From Lacipirellula parvula (GTDB taxonomy: Bacteria > Planctomycetota > Planctomycetia > Pirellulales > Lacipirellulaceae), in contig NZ_AP021861.1 of NCBI RefSeq assembly GCF_009177095.1, positions 2,524,501 to 2,588,500 of the forward strand: a stretch of DNA of 64,000 nt, given 5' to 3'. The position numbers were made by a program, and so were the translations under genes. Below are positions 19,649-59,126 of the stretch, piece after piece (within the stretch, counting starts at the first letter, position 1; the number at the start of each line of letters is the position of its first letter). The notes under the pieces are model-generated. The model made no database searches. It was not told the DNA's origin and was given only the letters and a program-made list of their open reading frames with translations.

Positions 19649-20257
19649 TTAGTGCCCGAACGTCACGCCCCAACTCACCCCAGGCCCATGGCAATGGCTC
19701 GGCCCGTAGTAAGGCGGCGGATAGTAGTGCTCAACAATCACCGGTTGCGGCCCCGCGACCACCACCGGCGCCGGCCCCATCGGTATCGGCGGCGCTTGCA
19801 TCGTTTGAATGACATCGGCGGCGACGCCGTTGTTGTGCAGATAAATGACGTCGTTCGCGGTGAGCGGCCGCGCCATGCCCGAGGTCCGCACATAGTTCGA
19901 AATCAGCGCCGGGTTCACCCCCGAGCGCGTCATCGCGATCACCTCTTCCGGAGTCGCGGCGCCCGCCTGCACTTGGCGGCCCATCGCCATGGCGATCTCG
20001 GCGCGGTTCTGCGCTTGAATATCATCGATCGCCGTTCCCACCGCCGCGCCGCCGAGCGCACCGACGCCGGCGCCAATCAGCGCGCCGCCTGCCGTGCTGC
20101 CGACGGCGTTGCCGACGATCGCGCCCACGCCCGCGCCGCCCAGGGCGCCAATGCCGGCCCCTTGGTCGGAGTAGTAAGGTGAACGACAGCCTACGGCGGC
20201 GAGCGCCATGGCCAACAGCAGCGGCGCCGCGCAAACGCGGCAGAACGGGCGGGTCAT
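19649..20257 (-). CDS. Glycine-zipper lipoprotein, function unknown
   Basis: About 202 residues from ATG 20257 (MTRPFCRVCAAPLLLAMALAAVGC). An ATG at 20272 is also possible. It has a lipoprotein signal with lipobox AAVGC. After that a 45-residue glycine zipper (GAGIGALGGAGVGAIVGNAV and a second copy) predicts membrane insertion or oligomerisation. A helical part follows with VIAMTRSGVNPALISNYV and NDVIYLHNNGVAADVIQTM, a pair of short repeats seen in many planctomycete lipoproteins. The tail is Pro/Tyr/Gly/His-rich. Probably an envelope structural protein. Confidence 0.8.
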   Translation of the reverse strand: MTRPFCRVCAAPLLLAMALAAVGCRSPYYSDQGAGIGALGGAGVGAIVGNAVGSTAGGALIGAGVGALGGAAVGTAIDDIQAQNRAEIAMAMGRQVQAGAATPEEVIAMTRSGVNPALISNYVRTSGMARPLTANDVIYLHNNGVAADVIQTMQAPPIPMGPAPVVVAGPQPVIVEHYYPPPYYGPSHCHGPGVSWGVTFGH

Positions 20258-20458
20258 CGGGGTGGGCCCCATCGGGGTGACTCTGAGCAGTGCGGGGCGG
20301 GGATCGTCTCAATCGGTCAGGGGACGGTCAAGGCCGTCTGATCCCGCTGACGGGGGGATTTGCGGGCGCCAGCGACTTGCATCTGCCCCGCGGCGCGCTT
20401 AGACTTCAAGTAACTCGGGATTTGTGGCCGCTTGCAGCCGTGACTGCTAAAGAGCCAA

Positions 20459-20561
20459 GCCGTTGCCCCCTTGCCCATTGCTGGCAGAGGGGGCGGCGGC
20501 AATCTTTATGGAGCTTGGTGAGCATCAAGCCGCATCTGCCGAGAGCGCATGCGGCTTTTTT
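20459..20561 (+). promoter_or_regulatory. Candidate attenuator leader: stable hairpin, competing small hairpin, intrinsic terminator
   Basis: No plus-strand gene lies upstream, yet a strong plus-strand terminator stands 54 bases before the next gene: stem AAGCCGCAT / ATGCGGCTT (20527-20535, 20549-20557) then six T. Before it are a 13-bp hairpin at 20459-20500 (GCCGTTGCCCCCT with GU pairs) and a small hairpin, CTTGGT-GAGC-ATCAAG (20514-20529), that shares three bases with the terminator stem. A transcript beginning at about 20280-20450 would be stopped unless this fold changes. The downstream gene is a sulfur amino acid enzyme. I could not match a known SAM or SAH riboswitch consensus. Confidence 0.5.
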
Positions 20562-20614
20562 CGTGCCTGTGCGTTGCGTAGGAGCCCTCGCGGCTCGTCC
20601 GCCCACTCACCGAG

Positions 20615-21871
20615 ATGCCAGAAATGAGTCACACTCAGATGACCCGCCAGCCGTCCGCGGGAGACGATTCCGTCTCGCCGACCCTCCCCGCCGCCGATCA
20701 ACAGTTTGGCACCGTCGCCGTCCACGCCGGCGAGGCCCGTCAAAAACCGGGCGACGCGATCACCGACGCCATCTTCTGCGCGTCGACTTACACGTTCGAA
20801 GATACGCAGTCGATCATCGACTTCATCGAACAAGAGCAGCCCCGCGAAGAGTACGGCCGCTACGGCAACCCGGGCGAGAAAGTCGTCGAGCGCAAGCTCG
20901 CCGCGCTTGAAGGTGGCGAAGAAGCCGTCCTCTACTCCAGCGGCATGGCCGCGATGGTCGGCCTGCTGATGGCCAAGCTCAGCAGCGGCGACGAAGTCAT
21001 CTTCTTCGACGAGTGTTATCACCGCAGCCGGGAGTTCTGTATTAAGCACCTGGGGCGGTTCGGCGTGACGACGCGCCAGGTGAAGACCTGCGACTACGCC
21101 GCGATGGAAGCGGCCATTACGCCCAAGACCCGCATGCTCATCAGCGAGTCGCCCACCAATCCCCACCTCAGCGTCATCGACCTCGAACGCTTCGCCGAGA
21201 TCGGCCGCAAGCACGGCGTCGACACGCTCATCGACGCGACGCTCGCCACGCCGTACAACCTCCGGCCGATTGAAGCGGGCGTCGACTTCGTCCTTCACTC
21301 GGCGACCAAGTACCTCGGCGGTCATAACGACCTGCTCGCCGGCGTCGTCATCGGCTCGAAGGAGAAGATGGATTCTGTCCGCAACCTCCGCGGCATCATG
21401 GGCGCCGTCAACGGACCGCAAAACTGCTACCTGCTTGGCCGCGGCTTGAAGACGTTCGAACTCCGCATGCAGCGGCACAACGAAAACGGCATGATGGTCG
21501 CCGAGTTCCTCGCCGGCCATCCGCGGATCGAAAGGGTCTACTACCCCGGCTTGCCGTCGCACCCCTACTACGACGTTGCCCGCAAGACGATGCGCGGCTT
21601 CGGCGGCTTGGTGACGTTCCTGGTGAAAGACGCCGACTGGCGGGCGACGGCCGACGTAATCGACGCGGTGAAGATTCCCCGCATCGCCCCGAGCCTCGGC
21701 GGCGTCGAGTCGCTCATCGAGCAACCGCTCGTGATGAGCTACTTCCAGCAAACGCCCGAGGCCCGCAAGCAGTTCGGCATCTTCGACAACATGATTCGCA
21801 TGAGCTGCGGCATCGAAAGCGCCGACGACCTCATTGCGGACCTAAGCCAAGCGCTCGACGCCACGGCGTAG
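20615..21871 (+). CDS. Cystathionine gamma-synthase family PLP-dependent enzyme
   Basis: 418 residues (ATGs at 20624 and 20639 are alternatives). Fold-type I Cys/Met-metabolism enzyme: EYGRYGNPGEKVVERKLAALEGG near residue 90, YSSGMAAMVG near 107 and DATLATPYN near 203. The PLP Lys is in LHSATKYLGGHND near 223, and SLGGVESLIEQP is near 370. Family members catalyse gamma-replacement, gamma-elimination or beta-elimination in transsulfuration or methionine salvage. The substrate cannot be fixed by sequence. A paralogue of the same fold follows 480 bases downstream, so together they may form forward transsulfuration (gamma-synthase plus lyase). Preceded by a possible attenuator. Confidence 0.88.
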   Translation: MPEMSHTQMTRQPSAGDDSVSPTLPAADQQFGTVAVHAGEARQKPGDAITDAIFCASTYTFEDTQSIIDFIEQEQPREEYGRYGNPGEKVVERKLAALEGGEEAVLYSSGMAAMVGLLMAKLSSGDEVIFFDECYHRSREFCIKHLGRFGVTTRQVKTCDYAAMEAAITPKTRMLISESPTNPHLSVIDLERFAEIGRKHGVDTLIDATLATPYNLRPIEAGVDFVLHSATKYLGGHNDLLAGVVIGSKEKMDSVRNLRGIMGAVNGPQNCYLLGRGLKTFELRMQRHNENGMMVAEFLAGHPRIERVYYPGLPSHPYYDVARKTMRGFGGLVTFLVKDADWRATADVIDAVKIPRIAPSLGGVESLIEQPLVMSYFQQTPEARKQFGIFDNMIRMSCGIESADDLIADLSQALDATA

Positions 21872-21878
21872 CTGAGAG

Positions 21879-22342
21879 GGTGATCGGGGATCGGTGATTG
21901 GTGATCGGTAATGCTTTTTGGAGCAATGTTCGATGGCCAGCAGTCACGAAGATCTCGAAGTGTGGCAACTTGGCATCGACTTAGTAGATGCGGTCTACGA
22001 TGTGTGTTTGTCGATGCCGGCTGCTGAACGCTTTGGTCTGATTAGCCAGATGCAACGCGCGTCTGTTTCAGTTCCTGCCAACATTGCCGAAGGTTGCGGG
22101 CGCGGTTCTACGAAGGACCTCTTGCGACATTTGGCCATCTCGCAAGGCTCGCTCGCAGAACTTCGCACGTTGCTGCTAATCGTGCAGCGTCGGAATTTTG
22201 TAGCGGCCGAAGAGCTTGAACCGGTCGACGCGTTGGCATCGCGAGTCGGTCGACTACTAGTCGGCTTGCAGCGCTCCCTACGCAAAAAGCTTGAGTAAAG
22301 TTAACGTCGTCTCCGATCACCAGTCACCGATCCCCGATCACC
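21879..22342 (+). mobile_element. IVS-like element: S23-family ORF enclosed by complementary arms
   Basis: The left arm 21879-21907 (GGTGATCGGGGATCGGTGAT...) and the right arm 22314-22342 (...CACCGATCCCCGATCACC) are 29 nt and complementary except for one position, which becomes a G-U pair in RNA. The arms can thus form an uninterrupted 29-bp RNA stem whose loop is exactly the S23-like gene (21933-22298). This is the layout of 23S rRNA intervening sequences, but it sits inside a protein-coding operon between two PLP-enzyme genes. Excision, mobility and processing are inferred, not shown. Confidence 0.65.
21933..22298 (+). CDS. Four-helix-bundle protein, S23 / 23S rRNA intervening-sequence protein family
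   Basis: 121 residues from ATG 21933, with GGAG nine bases upstream. It is the compact all-helical S23/TIGR02436 type: HEDLEVWQLGIDLVDAVYDV (helix 1), ERFGLISQMQRASVSVPANI with AEGCGR (the family hallmark), STKDLLRHLAISQGSLAELR and the last helix VDALASRVGRLLVGLQRSLR. The same fold is used by the Avd accessory protein of diversity-generating retroelements, but no reverse transcriptase is nearby. Bundles of this family bind nucleic acid as pentamers in studied cases. Its position inside a 29-bp arm pair and between two co-directional metabolic genes suggests an inserted element rather than a member of the pathway. Confidence 0.9.
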   Translation: MASSHEDLEVWQLGIDLVDAVYDVCLSMPAAERFGLISQMQRASVSVPANIAEGCGRGSTKDLLRHLAISQGSLAELRTLLLIVQRRNFVAAEELEPVDALASRVGRLLVGLQRSLRKKLE

Positions 22343-22351
22343 TGCCTCCCC

Positions 22352-23497
22352 ATGCAATTCCGCACCCGCGCCATCCACGTCGGCAACGAGCCGTGCGCCG
22401 AAACCGGCGCCGTCGTGCCGCCGATCCATCTGGCGACCACTTTCATCCAACCAGGCGCCGGCGATTGGGGCGAGTTCGATTACTCCCGCAGCGGCAACCC
22501 GACGCGGAAGAATTTTGAAACGACCCTCGCTTCGCTCGAAGGGGGCGTCGGCGCCTTGGCGTTCTCCACCGGTATGGCGGCGACCCACTGCGTCATTGCT
22601 TCGCTGAAGAGCGGCGACCACGTCGTCGCCGGCAGCGACATCTACGGCGGCAGCTACCGGCTGCTCCACAAAATCGCCAATCGCGCCGGCATCACGGTGA
22701 CGCTCGTCGACACGACTGATCTCGCGAGGGTCGAAGCCGCCTTCACCCCCGCGACGCGGCTCCTCTGGATCGAAAGCCCCGGCAACCCGCGCATGTCGAT
22801 CACCGACATCGAAGCCTGCGCGAAGCTCGCCCATCGCCACGGCGCCCTCCTCGGCATCGACAGCACCTTCGCGACGCCGGTCCTCACGCGGCCGCTTGAA
22901 CTCGGCGCCGACATCGTGATGCACTCGGCCACCAAATACATCGGCGGTCACAGCGATGCGATGGGCGGCGCGCTCGTCGTCCGCGACGCGGCGCTGCTCA
23001 AGGAACTCTACTTTGTGCAGAACGCCACCGGCGCCGTCATGGGGCCGCTTGAAGCCTTCCTCTGCTCCCGCGGGCTAAAGACGCTCGAACTCCGCGTTCG
23101 CGAGCAATGCCGCACTGCGCAGCAGCTGGCCGAGTGGCTCGCTTCCCACTCCCGCGTCGCGCGGGTACTCTACCCAGGGTTACCAAGCCATCCCGGCCAC
23201 GAACTTGCTCGCAAGCAAATGGGCGGCCAGTTTGGCGCCATGATGTCGTTCGAGATCAAGGGCGACCTCGCCGATGGCAAGCGATTTGCAGAGTCGACCA
23301 AACTGTTCGGCCTCGCTGTGAGCCTCGGCGCCGTCGAGTCGTTGATCGAACAGCCGGCGTCGATGTCGCACGCTAGCTACGACGCGGCCGACCGCGCGAA
23401 GCACGGCATCGCCGACGGGCTGATTCGGATTTCGGTCGGCCTCGAAGCGTACGAGGATTTGCGCAGCGATTTGGAATCGGCGTTCGGCGCGATTTAA
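22352..23497 (+). CDS. Cystathionine gamma-synthase/lyase-like PLP enzyme
   Basis: 381 residues. It begins MQFRTRAIHVGNEP, ten bases after the right arm of the S23 element. Typical family blocks: PPIHLATTF, YSRSGNPTRKNFE, FSTGMAATHCV, SDIYGGSYRLLHKI (the YGG loop), DSTFATPVLTRPLELGAD and the PLP Lys in MHSATKYIGGHSD. The end has SLGAVESLIEQPASMSHA and IRISVGLE. It fits cystathionine gamma-synthase, gamma-lyase or O-acetylhomoserine sulfhydrylase, and sequence alone does not decide. No ordinary ribosome-binding site: the arm of the repeat takes that place, so translation could depend on the stem. Confidence 0.9.
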   Translation: MQFRTRAIHVGNEPCAETGAVVPPIHLATTFIQPGAGDWGEFDYSRSGNPTRKNFETTLASLEGGVGALAFSTGMAATHCVIASLKSGDHVVAGSDIYGGSYRLLHKIANRAGITVTLVDTTDLARVEAAFTPATRLLWIESPGNPRMSITDIEACAKLAHRHGALLGIDSTFATPVLTRPLELGADIVMHSATKYIGGHSDAMGGALVVRDAALLKELYFVQNATGAVMGPLEAFLCSRGLKTLELRVREQCRTAQQLAEWLASHSRVARVLYPGLPSHPGHELARKQMGGQFGAMMSFEIKGDLADGKRFAESTKLFGLAVSLGAVESLIEQPASMSHASYDAADRAKHGIADGLIRISVGLEAYEDLRSDLESAFGAI

Positions 23498-23531
23498 CGA
23501 CATACATTGCATTTCTAATACATTGAATGCC

Positions 23532-23612
23532 TCAACACAGAGGACACGGAGAGCACAGAGCAAAGCATTAGCCGCATTGTCTTCTCCGTGGCCTCTGTGC
23601 TCTCTGTGTTGA
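23532..23612. repeat. Imperfect palindrome, ACACAGAGG type
   Basis: TCAACACAGAGGACACGGAG at 23532 onward pairs imperfectly with CTCTGTGCTCTCTGTGTTGA ending at 23612. Loop about 23 bases. Lies between two co-directional genes. Confidence 0.8.
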
Positions 23613-23664
23613 ACGTATTTTCAAACAGGCTTCCGAATCACTCGGAACCGATTGGAGCGTAGCC

Positions 23665-24576
23665 ATGCAACTTGGTTTTGTGACTGCCATCTTCGGCGAC
23701 CTGAAGCTCGAAGAAGTTCTCAAGCACGCGTCGGAGATCGGCTACGACTGCGTCGAAGTGATGTGCTGGCCCCCCGGTACGGTTGACCGCGAGTACGGCG
23801 GCGTCGTCCACATTGACTGCACCGAGTTCACGCAAGCGCAGGCCGACGATATTCGCGCCCTGTGCGAGAAGTACAAGGTCGCGATCTCCGCACTCGGCTA
23901 CTACCCGAACGCCCTGTCGCACGACGAGGAAGAAGCGCAAATCGCGCGGACCCACGTTCGCAAGGTGATCGACGCCGCGACGAAGCTCGACCTGTCCGGC
24001 ATCAACACCTTCATCGGCGCCAACCAGTACGAGTCGCTCGAAGACAACCTGCTGAAGTTCGAAAAGGTCTGGCCCGAGATCATTCGCTACGCCGAAGACC
24101 GCAACATGCGGGTCGGCATCGAAAACTGCCCGATGATGATCGACAAGAGCTGGCCGTTTGGTTGGAACCTCGCCCGCACGCCGGCCATCTGGCGGCGGAT
24201 GTTCGAGGTGATCCCGTCGGTCTTTTTCGGCCTCAACTATGATCCGTCGCACCTGCGGATGCAGCTGATGGATCCGATCGCCCCGGTCTACGAGTTCGGC
24301 CAGCGAATCTTCCATAGCCACGCGAAGGACATGCGGATCGACGTCGAAAAGCTCAACCGCCTCGGCTCGCTCGTGCCGCCGATGCAACGCAGCACCGCCA
24401 AGATCCCCGGCCTCGGCGACGTGAACTGGGGCAAGTACATCGGCGCCCTTGCTGACGTCGGCTACGACGGTCCCGTTTGCGTCGAAGTCGAAGACGAAGC
24501 CTTCGAAGGGAGCCTTGAGAAGCGGCGTAAGTCGCTCGAAATCAGCTACCGCGTGCTGCGACCGCTGATTGCTTAG
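23665..24576 (+). CDS. Sugar phosphate isomerase/epimerase (xylose isomerase-like TIM barrel)
   Basis: 303 residues starting MQLGFVTAIFGDLKLEEVL, with GGAG upstream of the ATG. AP_endonuc_2/COG1082 barrel: GYDCVEVMCWPPG near residue 26, ISALGYYPN near 77, metal-ligand Glu in RVGIENCP near 153, Asp in NYDPSH near 193, His in FHSHAKD near 214 and Glu in VCVEVEDE near 273. Planctomycetes carry many such enzymes acting on sugars or inositols. No neighbour fixes the substrate. Confidence 0.88.
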   Translation: MQLGFVTAIFGDLKLEEVLKHASEIGYDCVEVMCWPPGTVDREYGGVVHIDCTEFTQAQADDIRALCEKYKVAISALGYYPNALSHDEEEAQIARTHVRKVIDAATKLDLSGINTFIGANQYESLEDNLLKFEKVWPEIIRYAEDRNMRVGIENCPMMIDKSWPFGWNLARTPAIWRRMFEVIPSVFFGLNYDPSHLRMQLMDPIAPVYEFGQRIFHSHAKDMRIDVEKLNRLGSLVPPMQRSTAKIPGLGDVNWGKYIGALADVGYDGPVCVEVEDEAFEGSLEKRRKSLEISYRVLRPLIA

Positions 24577-24593
24577 CTAGGGAAAGGGCAACT

Positions 24594-24730
24594 CCGAAGA
24601 CGCGAAGGAAGATGACCGCGGATAGCGCAGATTTCACAGATAAAGTGAGGGGTGAGTTCGCTCCCCATTTTTCTATCCGTGCCATCAGCGAAATCCGCGG
24701 TGGTCTTCTCTTTTTAACTTTGCGTCTTCG
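24594..24730. repeat. Long imperfect palindrome between convergent genes
   Basis: CGAAGACGCGAAGGAAGATG with ACCGCGGATAGCG (24594-24632) pairs with GCGAAATCCGCGGTGGTCTT and GCGTCTTCG (24688-24730). A small hairpin (GGGGTGAG / CTCCCC) lies in the middle. It ends four bases before the rlmKL stop. Confidence 0.75.
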
Positions 24731-24733
24731 TGA

Positions 24734-27262
24734 TTAACTCTTCACAATCCGCCAGCAGCGGTGGATTCGTTTATTACGAAAATCTTCCGGCACTGTCTTA
24801 TTCGAAATCTCGCGGACCGCGGCGCCGCGCAGCGCTTGCTCGTCGAATTTGAACTTCCGCGAGTTCGTCGAGAAGTACATCACGCCGCTCGGCGTCATGC
24901 AGCGCAGCACTTCGTTGAGCAGCCACTCGTAATCTTGCTGCACGTCCCAGTCGTCCTCGACCCGCTTGCTGTTCGAGAACGTCGGCGGATCGACGACCGC
25001 CAGATCGAACTGCGGCCGGCCGCCCAGCGACGCGACGAACTCGCGGCTGTCGTCGCGAACGAGCCGATGCTGCGGCCCGTGGAGGCCGTTGAGTTCCAGG
25101 TTCCGTTCAGCCCATTCAAGGTACACCGGCGACAGATCGACGGTGGTCGTTTCGCTCGCCCCGCCCGCCGCGGCGTACGCGGTGAACGAACCGGTGTAAG
25201 CGAACAAATTGAGGAACCGCTTGCCGGCCGCCGCGTCGCGAACTATGCCGCGGGTGACGCGGTGATCGAGGAACAGGCCCGTATCGAGGTAGTCCGACAG
25301 GTTTACTTCGAACTTGAGCCCCCCTTCGTTCACGACTCTCACGACCTGCGCATCATCGAACCGCTCGTACTGCTCCGTGCCGCGCTGCCGTTGACGTCGC
25401 TTGACGAAGACGAGATCCTCCGGCGTTTCGAGCGCCTCGGCCGCGGTGCGCACCATATGGTCGAGCCAGTCGGCATGCTCCGCCGCGGTCCGCTCGTGGG
25501 GGCGATCGAACTCGGCGATGTGGAGCGCGTCTTCGTAGCGATCGACGACGAGCGGAATCTCGGGGATGTCGCGCTCGTAGATGCGATAGCAAGTGATGCC
25601 GCGCTTCGTCGGCCAGCGGCGCAAGTGGCGGGCGAGCTTCTTTAGGCGGTTACCAAAGTCGGCGGCTTGGCGTTCGGCGTCGGCGTGTAGGCCGCCGAAG
25701 GCGGGGCGCTGCACCGGGCGCGGCGTGCGTGGTTGCTGCGGAACATTGCTTACGTTGGACTCGTGCGAGCCTGAATCTGCACTGAATTCCGCCGCCGAGC
25801 TCACCTCCCAACTTGCCCCCGTTTGGTCCCCCTCCCCTTGAGGGGGAGGGGATAGGGGAGGGGTGATTGAAGTGGCAGACGACTCCGCCACTTCAGCCCC
25901 CCTCCCCAGCACTCCCCTCGAGGGGGAGGGAGCCGGAGCATTCTTGAGAGTTGAATCTGACGAATCAGGTGGAGCTTGTGACGAGGGACGCTCAACAGGG
26001 TCGGGGACCTTTTGCCACTCGCGACTCTCTTCTGAATTGGCGCTCTCCAGTGGCAAAAGGTCCCCGACCCCTTCGCCGCTTCCCACGCCATTATCGCCGC
26101 TAGTCTTAGCAACCCCATCCTTCCGCCGCGGCGGCTTCGGCCCAAAGAACTGAAACAAATTGCACTGCAGCCGCCCGTTGTACAGCTTCCGCCGCTTGTC
26201 AGACTGCTGCCCGACGAGCCGTTCAAAGTCAGGATGCGCCGTCAGAATAAAATGCGACCAAGTCTTTAATCGCCGCAGCACGTTCGGAATCGAACGATAC
26301 AGCTCTTCGATCTCCGCCTCTTCGCCCATCCGCACGCCGTAGGGCGGGTTCGTGATCACGCAACCATAGTTGCGGCTGCTGGTGAGCTCATCGAACGTAT
26401 GCTGCTGGAAGTGAACATCGTCGGCCACGCCCGCGAGTCCCGCATGGTAGCGAGCAAGTTTCAGTGACTCGCCATCGGCGTCGCAGCCAATGATCCGCAG
26501 CGGCAGCGCGGGCAGCGCGAGATCGTCCGCTTCCTCGCGGGCCGCTTGCCAGGCCGCGGCCGGAATTTGCTCCCAAGTCTCCGCGGCGAACGCCCGCTTC
26601 CGTCCCGGCGCGAGCCGCCGCCCGATCATCGCAGCTTCAATCGCAATCGTCCCCGTGCCGCAGAAGGGATCGACGAGTTGACGCTCCGGCTTCCAAAAGC
26701 TGAGCTGCACCATCGCCGCCGCCAGCGTCTCGCGCAATTGGGCCGCCGCGGCGAGCGTGCGGTAACCGCGGCGATGAAGACCGTGGCCCGACGTGTCGAG
26801 ATCGATCGTCGCGAGATCGTTGACCAGCGACACTTCGACGGCGATCGGCGCGCCAGTTTCCGGAAGTTCCACGCCTGGCCGCGCGGCGAGCAGCCGCTCG
26901 ACGATCGCCTTCTTCACCGAACGCTGAATCGCCGGCACGCTCGAAAGTTGCGACTTGACCGATCGCCCGCCAACCGGGATCGCCGCGTCGGCGGCAATCC
27001 ACTCTTCCCACGGGAAGTCGCGCGTCGTATCGAATAAGGCGTCAAAGTCGGCCGCCTGAAACGACGCGAGCTCCACCAGCACGCGGTCGGCCGAGCGGAG
27101 CCACATGTTCGCCCGGCAGAGCGCCGACGCATCGCCGCTGAACGCGATTCGCCCGGGCCGGGCGACCTTCGCGGCGTAACCGAGATCGCTCAGTTCGCGG
27201 ACGACGACCGCCTCCAAACCGAAGGCGGAAGTGGCGATCAAATTGAGCGAAGCGGCAGGCAT
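24734..27262 (-). CDS. rlmL: Bifunctional 23S rRNA methyltransferase RlmKL with repeat-derived linker
   Basis: 842 residues from ATG 27262 (MPAASLNLIATSAFGLEAVV), where the family begins. An ATG at 27337 would add 25 residues. The THUMP region covers about 50-160. The RlmL half (N2-methyl-G2445) has DPFCGTGTIAIEAA near 215 and TNPPYG near 303. The RlmK half (m7G2069) has LNLFAYTGSFTAYAA near 685 and VVDPPTFSNSK near 757. E. coli RlmKL is about 700 residues. The excess is a low-complexity linker, about 385-510 (Ser/Pro/Glu/Gly-rich), encoded by two palindromic elements (25827-25931, 25998-26070) that keep the frame open. The product methylates two bases near the peptidyl transferase region during 50S assembly. 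Confidence 0.92.
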   Translation of the reverse strand: MPAASLNLIATSAFGLEAVVVRELSDLGYAAKVARPGRIAFSGDASALCRANMWLRSADRVLVELASFQAADFDALFDTTRDFPWEEWIAADAAIPVGGRSVKSQLSSVPAIQRSVKKAIVERLLAARPGVELPETGAPIAVEVSLVNDLATIDLDTSGHGLHRRGYRTLAAAAQLRETLAAAMVQLSFWKPERQLVDPFCGTGTIAIEAAMIGRRLAPGRKRAFAAETWEQIPAAAWQAAREEADDLALPALPLRIIGCDADGESLKLARYHAGLAGVADDVHFQQHTFDELTSSRNYGCVITNPPYGVRMGEEAEIEELYRSIPNVLRRLKTWSHFILTAHPDFERLVGQQSDKRRKLYNGRLQCNLFQFFGPKPPRRKDGVAKTSGDNGVGSGEGVGDLLPLESANSEESREWQKVPDPVERPSSQAPPDSSDSTLKNAPAPSPSRGVLGRGAEVAESSATSITPPLSPPPQGEGDQTGASWEVSSAAEFSADSGSHESNVSNVPQQPRTPRPVQRPAFGGLHADAERQAADFGNRLKKLARHLRRWPTKRGITCYRIYERDIPEIPLVVDRYEDALHIAEFDRPHERTAAEHADWLDHMVRTAAEALETPEDLVFVKRRQRQRGTEQYERFDDAQVVRVVNEGGLKFEVNLSDYLDTGLFLDHRVTRGIVRDAAAGKRFLNLFAYTGSFTAYAAAGGASETTTVDLSPVYLEWAERNLELNGLHGPQHRLVRDDSREFVASLGGRPQFDLAVVDPPTFSNSKRVEDDWDVQQDYEWLLNEVLRCMTPSGVMYFSTNSRKFKFDEQALRGAAVREISNKTVPEDFRNKRIHRCWRIVKS
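25827..25931. repeat. Palindromic element inside rlmKL, CCCCTCCCC type
   Basis: Hairpin CCCCTCCCC-TTGA-GGGGGAGGGG at its left end and CTCCCCTCGAGGGGGAGGG at its right end. Nested arms GGGGTGATTGAAGTGGC / GCCACTTCAGCCCC lie between. It falls entirely within the linker of rlmKL and is free of stops in the coding frame. Confidence 0.85.
25998..26070. repeat. Twin-hairpin element inside rlmKL
   Basis: Arms 25998-26019 and 26049-26070 are a perfect 22-bp inverted repeat. Each outer end is itself a hairpin (GGTC-GGG-GACC and GGTC-CCC-GACC), the same design as the intergenic twin-hairpin elements. The spacer is 29 bases. Translated in frame in rlmKL. Confidence 0.9.
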
Positions 27263-59066: not shown

Positions 59067-59126
59067 CGCTCCGGCGGGTCGTTGACCCGCGGCTACTGAT
59101 CACCAGTCACCGATCTCCGATCACCT
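59067..59126. repeat. GCGGGTC hairpin followed by a solo S23-element right arm
   Basis: The hairpin GCGGGTC-GTT-GACCCGC is at 59074-59090 with the usual GCTCCG and GGCTACTGA flanks. Directly after it, 59098-59126 (GATCACCAGTCACCGATCTC then CGATCACCT) matches the right arm of the S23 element at 22315-22342 with one difference. It ends seven bases before the ATG of the M29 gene. No left arm or S23 ORF is nearby. Confidence 0.85.

Follow-up and report, generated by a model that had tools for sequence, protein, structure and literature searches.

Between two genes for PLP-dependent enzymes in Lacipirellula parvula lies a gene for an S23-family protein, enclosed by two complementary arms that are built of tandem 7-nt units, and we think it likely that the whole is a single member of a widespread class of short, S23-coding insertion elements whose ends are inverted heptad arrays. 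The observation is true and far more general than the single element in our window. S23 elements are already known from rRNA; new here are those outside rRNA that end in inverted heptad arrays, and the intervening sequences (IVSs) of 23S rRNA are probably the rRNA-located special case of such insertion elements.

The genome, 6.92 Mb on one contig, was the source of the window, by which we mean the whole 64-kb stretch analysed (genome positions 2524501-2588500); coordinates below are those of the window unless they are called genomic. The upstream arm (21879-21908, + strand) consists of four GGTGATC-type heptads plus GG, with its G-rich strand as the sense strand, and the downstream arm (22313-22342, - strand) is the same array inverted, with an irregular GGGGATC unit in the matching register. 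Over 30 nt the two are 97% complementary, the only mismatch being T/G, and they enclose a loop of 404 nt. The element fills its spacer, because the upstream gene, for a Cys/Met metabolism PLP-dependent enzyme (20615-21871, + strand; PF01053, 4e-127), stops at 21871 and the downstream gene, for a cystathionine gamma-synthase-like PLP enzyme (22352-23497, + strand; PF01053, 6.5e-144), starts at 22352; the upstream arm begins 7 nt past the stop codon of the one, and the downstream arm ends 9 nt ahead of the ATG of the other. These neighbours are co-directional with each other, and for the second, the best NCBIfam model is cystathionine gamma-synthase, at a score below that model's cut-off. A sequence-only reading of this DNA had recognized an S23-family ORF between two PLP-enzyme genes, within complementary arms at 21879-21907 and 22314-22342 whose sole mismatch set T against G, and had likened the whole to an rRNA IVS. 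All of that has stood up: the arms are one pair longer than described, and the resemblance lies in an S23 ORF with complementary arms, here in an operon spacer.

Six inverted repeats in the window score 44 or more. Of these, the S23 pair alone has a loop longer than 121 nt, and it alone shows a clear period of 7 nt (0.83). Its arm score of 55 compares with 28.6 at the 99th percentile of position-shifted controls, and in the predicted minimum-energy RNA fold the arms pair (z -7.8 versus shuffles). With up to two mismatches, GGTGATYGGTGATYGG matches the window 10 times, against 0.22 expected. A solitary array of the GGTGATC heptad family lies at 59096-59125 (- strand; genome match 2583598-2583625), with no inverted partner detected nearby.

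The enclosed ORF (21933-22298, + strand) starts at the ATG at 21933, which gives 121 aa, or possibly at a TTG at 21918, which would give 126 aa, and its stop codon ends at 22298. It is a full-length member of the S23 (23S_rRNA_IVP, four helix bundle) family, scoring above the curated cut-offs across the whole of the model both for PF05635 (E 1.3e-32, 112.6 bits, cut-off 33.8) and for TIGR02436 (4.1e-31, 107.4 bits, cut-off 24); the family definition is silent about flanking arms. Against orthologues its pN/pS is 0.23-0.32, with synonymous sites saturated, and the ORF is therefore under purifying selection. To our knowledge, S23 proteins have a solved ring structure and no known function, and we take XCC0516 to be an S23 homopentamer whose ring structure is known. 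The window's ORF matches this crystal-structure protein (PDB 2GSC, E 2e-20), and S23 has been described as a pentamer (PMC4990558). The related Avd family of diversity-generating retroelements (DGRs), whose relation to S23 has been noted (PMC10053308), was considered as an identity for the ORF and rejected: the weak match to bAvd (28.5 bits, cut-off 40) and that to DivGenRetAVD (19.9 bits, cut-off 80) both fall below cut-off, and no reverse transcriptase lies near the element, the single RVT_1 match of the genome being at 4.28 Mb, 1.7 Mb away. A group II intron, a DGR or a known structured RNA was rejected as well, with no reverse transcriptase close by and no Rfam match at 20000-25000.

How general is the layout? 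L. parvula has eight PF05635 genes, and a check for arms around other S23 genes found complementary flanking arms at all eight and at most planctomycete loci. Nearly all of the arms in this genome differ in sequence, with units that include GAGTTGC, CAGGGTT, AATGGGG, GAAGGGG, GAATGAC and GGTGATC; at one locus (L001), the pair is weak, at 12 nt and a score of 24. An internal stop codon breaks two of the eight ORFs (L001 and L003), and the class therefore includes decayed copies. Nor is a location outside rRNA an exception: none of the eight was seen in an rRNA gene, and the flanks that were read hold protein-coding neighbours. Counts given for the whole genome come from searches by pattern and by family.

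For the wider comparison, there were 242 usable S23 loci (8 in L. parvula itself, 87 elsewhere in its family, 70 elsewhere in its phylum and 77 found by a scan across GTDB), picked by best family score rather than randomly. The upstream flank of each was locally aligned with the reverse complement of its downstream flank, and the control was the identical geometry shifted along the same loci, with a separate cross-locus null besides. Among 165 planctomycete loci, 91% exceed the 95th percentile of the control and 83% the 99th; GTDB-wide, the corresponding figures for 62 loci with full flanks are 77 and 65%, and about a quarter of the GTDB-wide loci have weak arms. Good pairs, with a score of at least 30, occur in Bacteroidota, Acidobacteria, Alpha-, Beta- and Gammaproteobacteria, Chloroflexi, Clostridia, Nitrospirae, Neomarinimicrobiota and Armatimonadetes, as well as in one cyanobacterium and one CPR bacterium. 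S23 inside inverted arms is a layout of at least ten bacterial phyla, and this recurrence suggests that a family of short insertion elements has been overlooked. Copy number varies too: a draft genome of the same family (G031) has 20 PF05635 matches, the highest in the family, which suggests a local expansion.

The sequence of the arms varies between elements, and what they have in common is a rule: tandem 7-nt units with RG, inverted, with the G-rich side upstream. In the 177 elements with good pairs, base identity within an arm is 0.64 at a lag of 7 and 0.63 at a lag of 14, and no other lag up to 20 gives more than 0.34. With 37% G and 13% C, the upstream arm is G-rich, and the downstream array is C-rich in the sense RNA. 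Alignment of the heptads by rotation, for which 139 elements were used, gives a profile of R (0.88) and G (0.94) with little constraint on the five positions after them, that is, RGNNNNN, with an expectation-maximization (EM) alignment score of 402.7 versus 359.5 +- 1.1 when the phases are permuted; the RG profile is recovered separately from each arm and from the family, phylum and GTDB-wide sets. An arm usually has four to five units, with a mode of five that depends on the array-extension rule used. Similarity of the heptads tracks similarity of the S23 proteins (Mantel, 0 of 500 permutations), a correlation that may reflect joint inheritance, recognition or both.

Elements of this class come and go. 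The spacer between the two PLP-enzyme genes holds an S23 element in three genera, namely in L. parvula, in the MAG HKST-UBA22 and in Bythopirellula polymerisocia Pla144, and the latter two copies are the closest S23 proteins found to that of the window (74% and 68%); since the three are mutual closest relatives, vertical inheritance with losses fits too. A check of orthologous loci for sites lacking the ORF found that S23 is often absent, two congeners included at this very spacer, where several other relatives have ORF-less inverted repeats of an 8-9-nt type and others have short plain spacers. Five more S23 sites of the genome, compared with congeners, tell of comparable gain or loss. At one of them, two congeners carry S23 and a third, G038, shows a plain spacer; the gcvH-gcvPA-like spacer (L344-L347) has S23 here only, and the four congeners compared (G034, G035, G036 and G038) hold ORF-less inverted repeats of differing sequence; the remaining compared sites are mixed. 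Spacers such as the gcvH-gcvPA-like one look like hot spots or like places of very fast arm turnover. Because congeners have at the orthologous spacers either nothing or ORF-less inverted repeats of another sequence, the element is dispensable. We saw neither a transposition event nor an excision product, and no target duplication either, the orthologous spacers being too diverged to define one.

The element that we picture is a unit made of a G-rich array of about four to five RGNNNNN heptads, an S23 ORF and the array inverted, placed in operon spacers in sense orientation. It would be mobile, or often turned over, as a unit of DNA, and it likely lacks a promoter, its S23 being expressed via host read-through transcription. 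Across the elements, the median distance from an upstream stop codon to the first arm is 3 nt, and that from the second arm to the next ATG is 10 nt. The S23 homopentamer may recognise the arms, possibly with one RG heptad per subunit, and the ring would thereby hold or mark both ends of the element. The transcript could form a long stem for RNase III to cut, as in rRNA IVSs; such candidate cutting, which is plausible, would make the insertion tolerable in the transcript and would not be what keeps the arms alike. They would be matched via inverted duplication or hairpin-templated correction. If this is right, the 7-nt grammar shared by both flanks of S23 genes is a concrete candidate ligand for the S23 ring.

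The nearest known system is the 23S rRNA IVS of Coxiella burnetii and Leptospira, in which, as in the window, an S23 ORF lies inside complementary terminal arms. In Coxiella, the stem is 28 bp long, GACAGAT heptamers stand in tandem beside the ORF, and RNase III cuts within the stem (PMC4990558); the heptamer contains AG and so fits the RG grammar. The window's element has arms comparable to the ~28-bp stem (30 nt, 97%) and an S23 ORF with heptameric repeats. It differs in location: rRNA IVSs sit in rRNA helices, with their processing by RNase III shown, whereas our element sits in a protein-operon spacer, flanked by PLP-enzyme genes and with no Rfam match at the locus. At the RNA level it may nonetheless act as an IVS does. 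Inserts in CPR rRNA can encode an S23 protein as well (PMC11270868), and the origin of rRNA IVSs was still called unclear 25 years after their identification (PMC4990558). On our reading, the rRNA IVS would no longer be an oddity of rRNA but one particular form of an intergenic element that is common. In the literature we found no description of a 7-nt grammar for rRNA IVSs and no publication linking S23 genes outside rRNA with inverted heptad arms, in a search that most subscription journals and bioRxiv lay beyond.

A second set of likenesses is with intergenic tandem heptamers. TAACTGA heptamers are found in Beggiatoaceae, where they mostly lie immediately before start codons, and also in cyanobacteria and Bacteroidetes, without an established explanation (MacGregor 2015, PMC4679880). 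They and the cyanobacterial STRRs are, like the S23 arms, tandem 7-nt units between genes (lag-7 identity of 0.64 in the class, 0.83 in the window's arm), and the reverse complement, TCAGTTA, resembles S23 heptads such as AGTTGTC and AGTTTTC. In contrast to those arms, the TAACTGA repeats are reported as direct repeats and not as inverted pairs, and in a paper with 0 mentions of S23 (PMC4679880). We infer a possible link from these sequence resemblances, through which S23 elements would offer an origin for the heptamer repeats reported in Beggiatoaceae and cyanobacteria. More boldly, and as a conjecture that we would sooner doubt than defend, S23 genes and inverted RG-heptad arrays might form a single bacteria-wide class of mobile nucleoprotein element, moving with no known transposase, in which the S23 ring reads one RG heptad per subunit on 35-nt ends and of which the rRNA IVSs, the Beggiatoa TAACTGA repeats and the cyanobacterial heptanucleotide STRRs are members or relics.

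Could the element instead be an mRNA intervening sequence, whose arms are complementary so that RNase III can excise S23 and split the two-enzyme message, perhaps uncoupling the two enzymes? We regard this as possible and lean against it. The predicted RNA fold has a 30-bp stem with a single G.U pair, and the Coxiella IVS is put together likewise, with RNase III cutting inside its stem (PMC4990558). The sense bias is strong as well: with co-directional neighbours, S23 is sense in 167 cases versus antisense in 9 (95% sense, p 8e-39), as judged by automatic ORF calling with some errors in GC-rich DNA. Such a bias does not need an RNA stem, because the antisense orientation would form the stem equally well. 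If pairing in RNA were selected, G.U mismatches between the arms should outnumber the mirror-image A.C ones. The 177 elements have 181 of the G.U type versus 185 of the A.C type (p 0.88; 95% CI 44-55%), so pairing at the RNA level is not visibly maintained; this equality counts against an mRNA intervening sequence, and it lends no support to the sequence-only reading's view that the stem is maintained on RNA, which we reject as the cause of arm complementarity.

What, then, keeps the arms alike? That both are simply arrays of one unit is part of the answer and not all of it, since real arm pairs match in register and beat all 12 unit shuffles in 39 of 108 cases, where 8.3 would be expected. 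In orthologous elements, moreover, a change in one arm goes with a change in the other: the window's site has GGTGATC units in L. parvula, GGTGACT/GGTGATC units in G026 and GGTGATT units in G012, and a different unit occupies both arms in G036 at the L005 site and, likewise, in G035 at the L003 site. Because of this match in register and this joint change, copying or correction between the arms at the DNA level fits better than selection for an RNA helix. Most likely, one arm is copied from the other as DNA, together with matching to the specificity of the protein.

Another reading makes the heptad inverted repeats an independent, MITE- or REP-like DNA that is moved by an enzyme encoded elsewhere, with the S23 ORFs as passengers. 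We consider this unlikely, and there is something to be said for it. ORF-less versions exist within the genome itself and at the corresponding spacers; L. parvula has six ORF-less inverted GGTGATC pairs with loops of 18-107 nt (genomic 338661-338741, 1735347-1735443, 3181104-3181221, 3779970-3780121, 5621358-5621420 and 6253710-6253840), possibly miniature derivatives. Genes for PDDEXK_3 (GxxExxY) proteins lie in similar arms of another repeat type, often ACCACRGAG..CACRGAG..CACRGAG with a spacing of 8-9 nt, in 4 of 4 cases in this genome (L098-L101) and in 30 of the 31 scored in the family (including L312-L340), and the arm layout is therefore not peculiar to S23. There are also four matches to the Y1 transposase family in the genome. 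Against a passenger role, the association with S23 is close, the heptad type follows the S23 type, and the repeat period goes with the protein, at 7 for S23 versus 8-9 for PDDEXK_3, whose loci are likely a second, parallel class of element. Nor do the Y1 transposases appear to own the arms: three of their four loci (L360, L362 and L363) have strong inverted repeats of their own, unrelated in sequence, and the fourth has none.

REP/RAYT systems and MITEs do share with S23 elements short intergenic inverted repeats and ORF-less derivatives, and the window's element, like an insertion sequence or a MITE, has terminal inverted repeats. The S23 arms differ from both in being tandem heptad arrays of many unrelated sequences, with no transposase or target duplication found and no transposase or nuclease encoded within the element. 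They depart from REP/RAYT further in that the arrays stand 404 nt apart, with no adjacent Y1 gene, and that the Y1 loci carry other repeats. A literature search on the arm repeats and GxxExxY returned nothing relevant. Past the cystathionine gamma-synthase-like gene of the window, the spacer at 23533-23611 has an ORF-less inverted repeat of the PDDEXK_3 type, CAACACAGAGGACACGGAGAGCACAGAG ... CTCTGTGCTCTCTGTGTTG.

The protein TRAP binds NAG repeats, and on that model, S23 might bind the heptads in its own mRNA and so regulate itself or a neighbour, with the inverted copy serving the downstream gene. One RG per 7 nt and a mode of five units do match a pentameric ring (2GSC; PMC4990558), and the arms adjoin the regions of start codons. 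The arms also occur without S23, however, in ORF-less inverted pairs, and a single RNA-binding specificity could not recognise the two arms as RNA, because the downstream array is C-rich in the sense RNA; we find this reading quite improbable. Chance, or a common terminator-like inverted repeat next to an S23 gene, deserves virtually no credence, for the arm score lies far beyond the shifted and cross-locus nulls, complementary arms recur at all eight S23 genes of the genome, and nothing speaks in its favour after controls.

The heptads themselves invite one other thought: 7 is coprime with 3, so tandem heptads could in principle set a stop codon in every reading frame. As such insulators they were rejected, the upstream arms showing no enrichment (0.176 versus 0.149 +- 0.031 with phases permuted); the downstream arms are enriched (0.241 versus 0.082 +- 0.023), but in only a quarter of elements. 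At one S23 locus (L208), the arms exceed 200 nt, with about 30 GGTGGAC-type heptads in each, and heptad arrays can therefore expand greatly.
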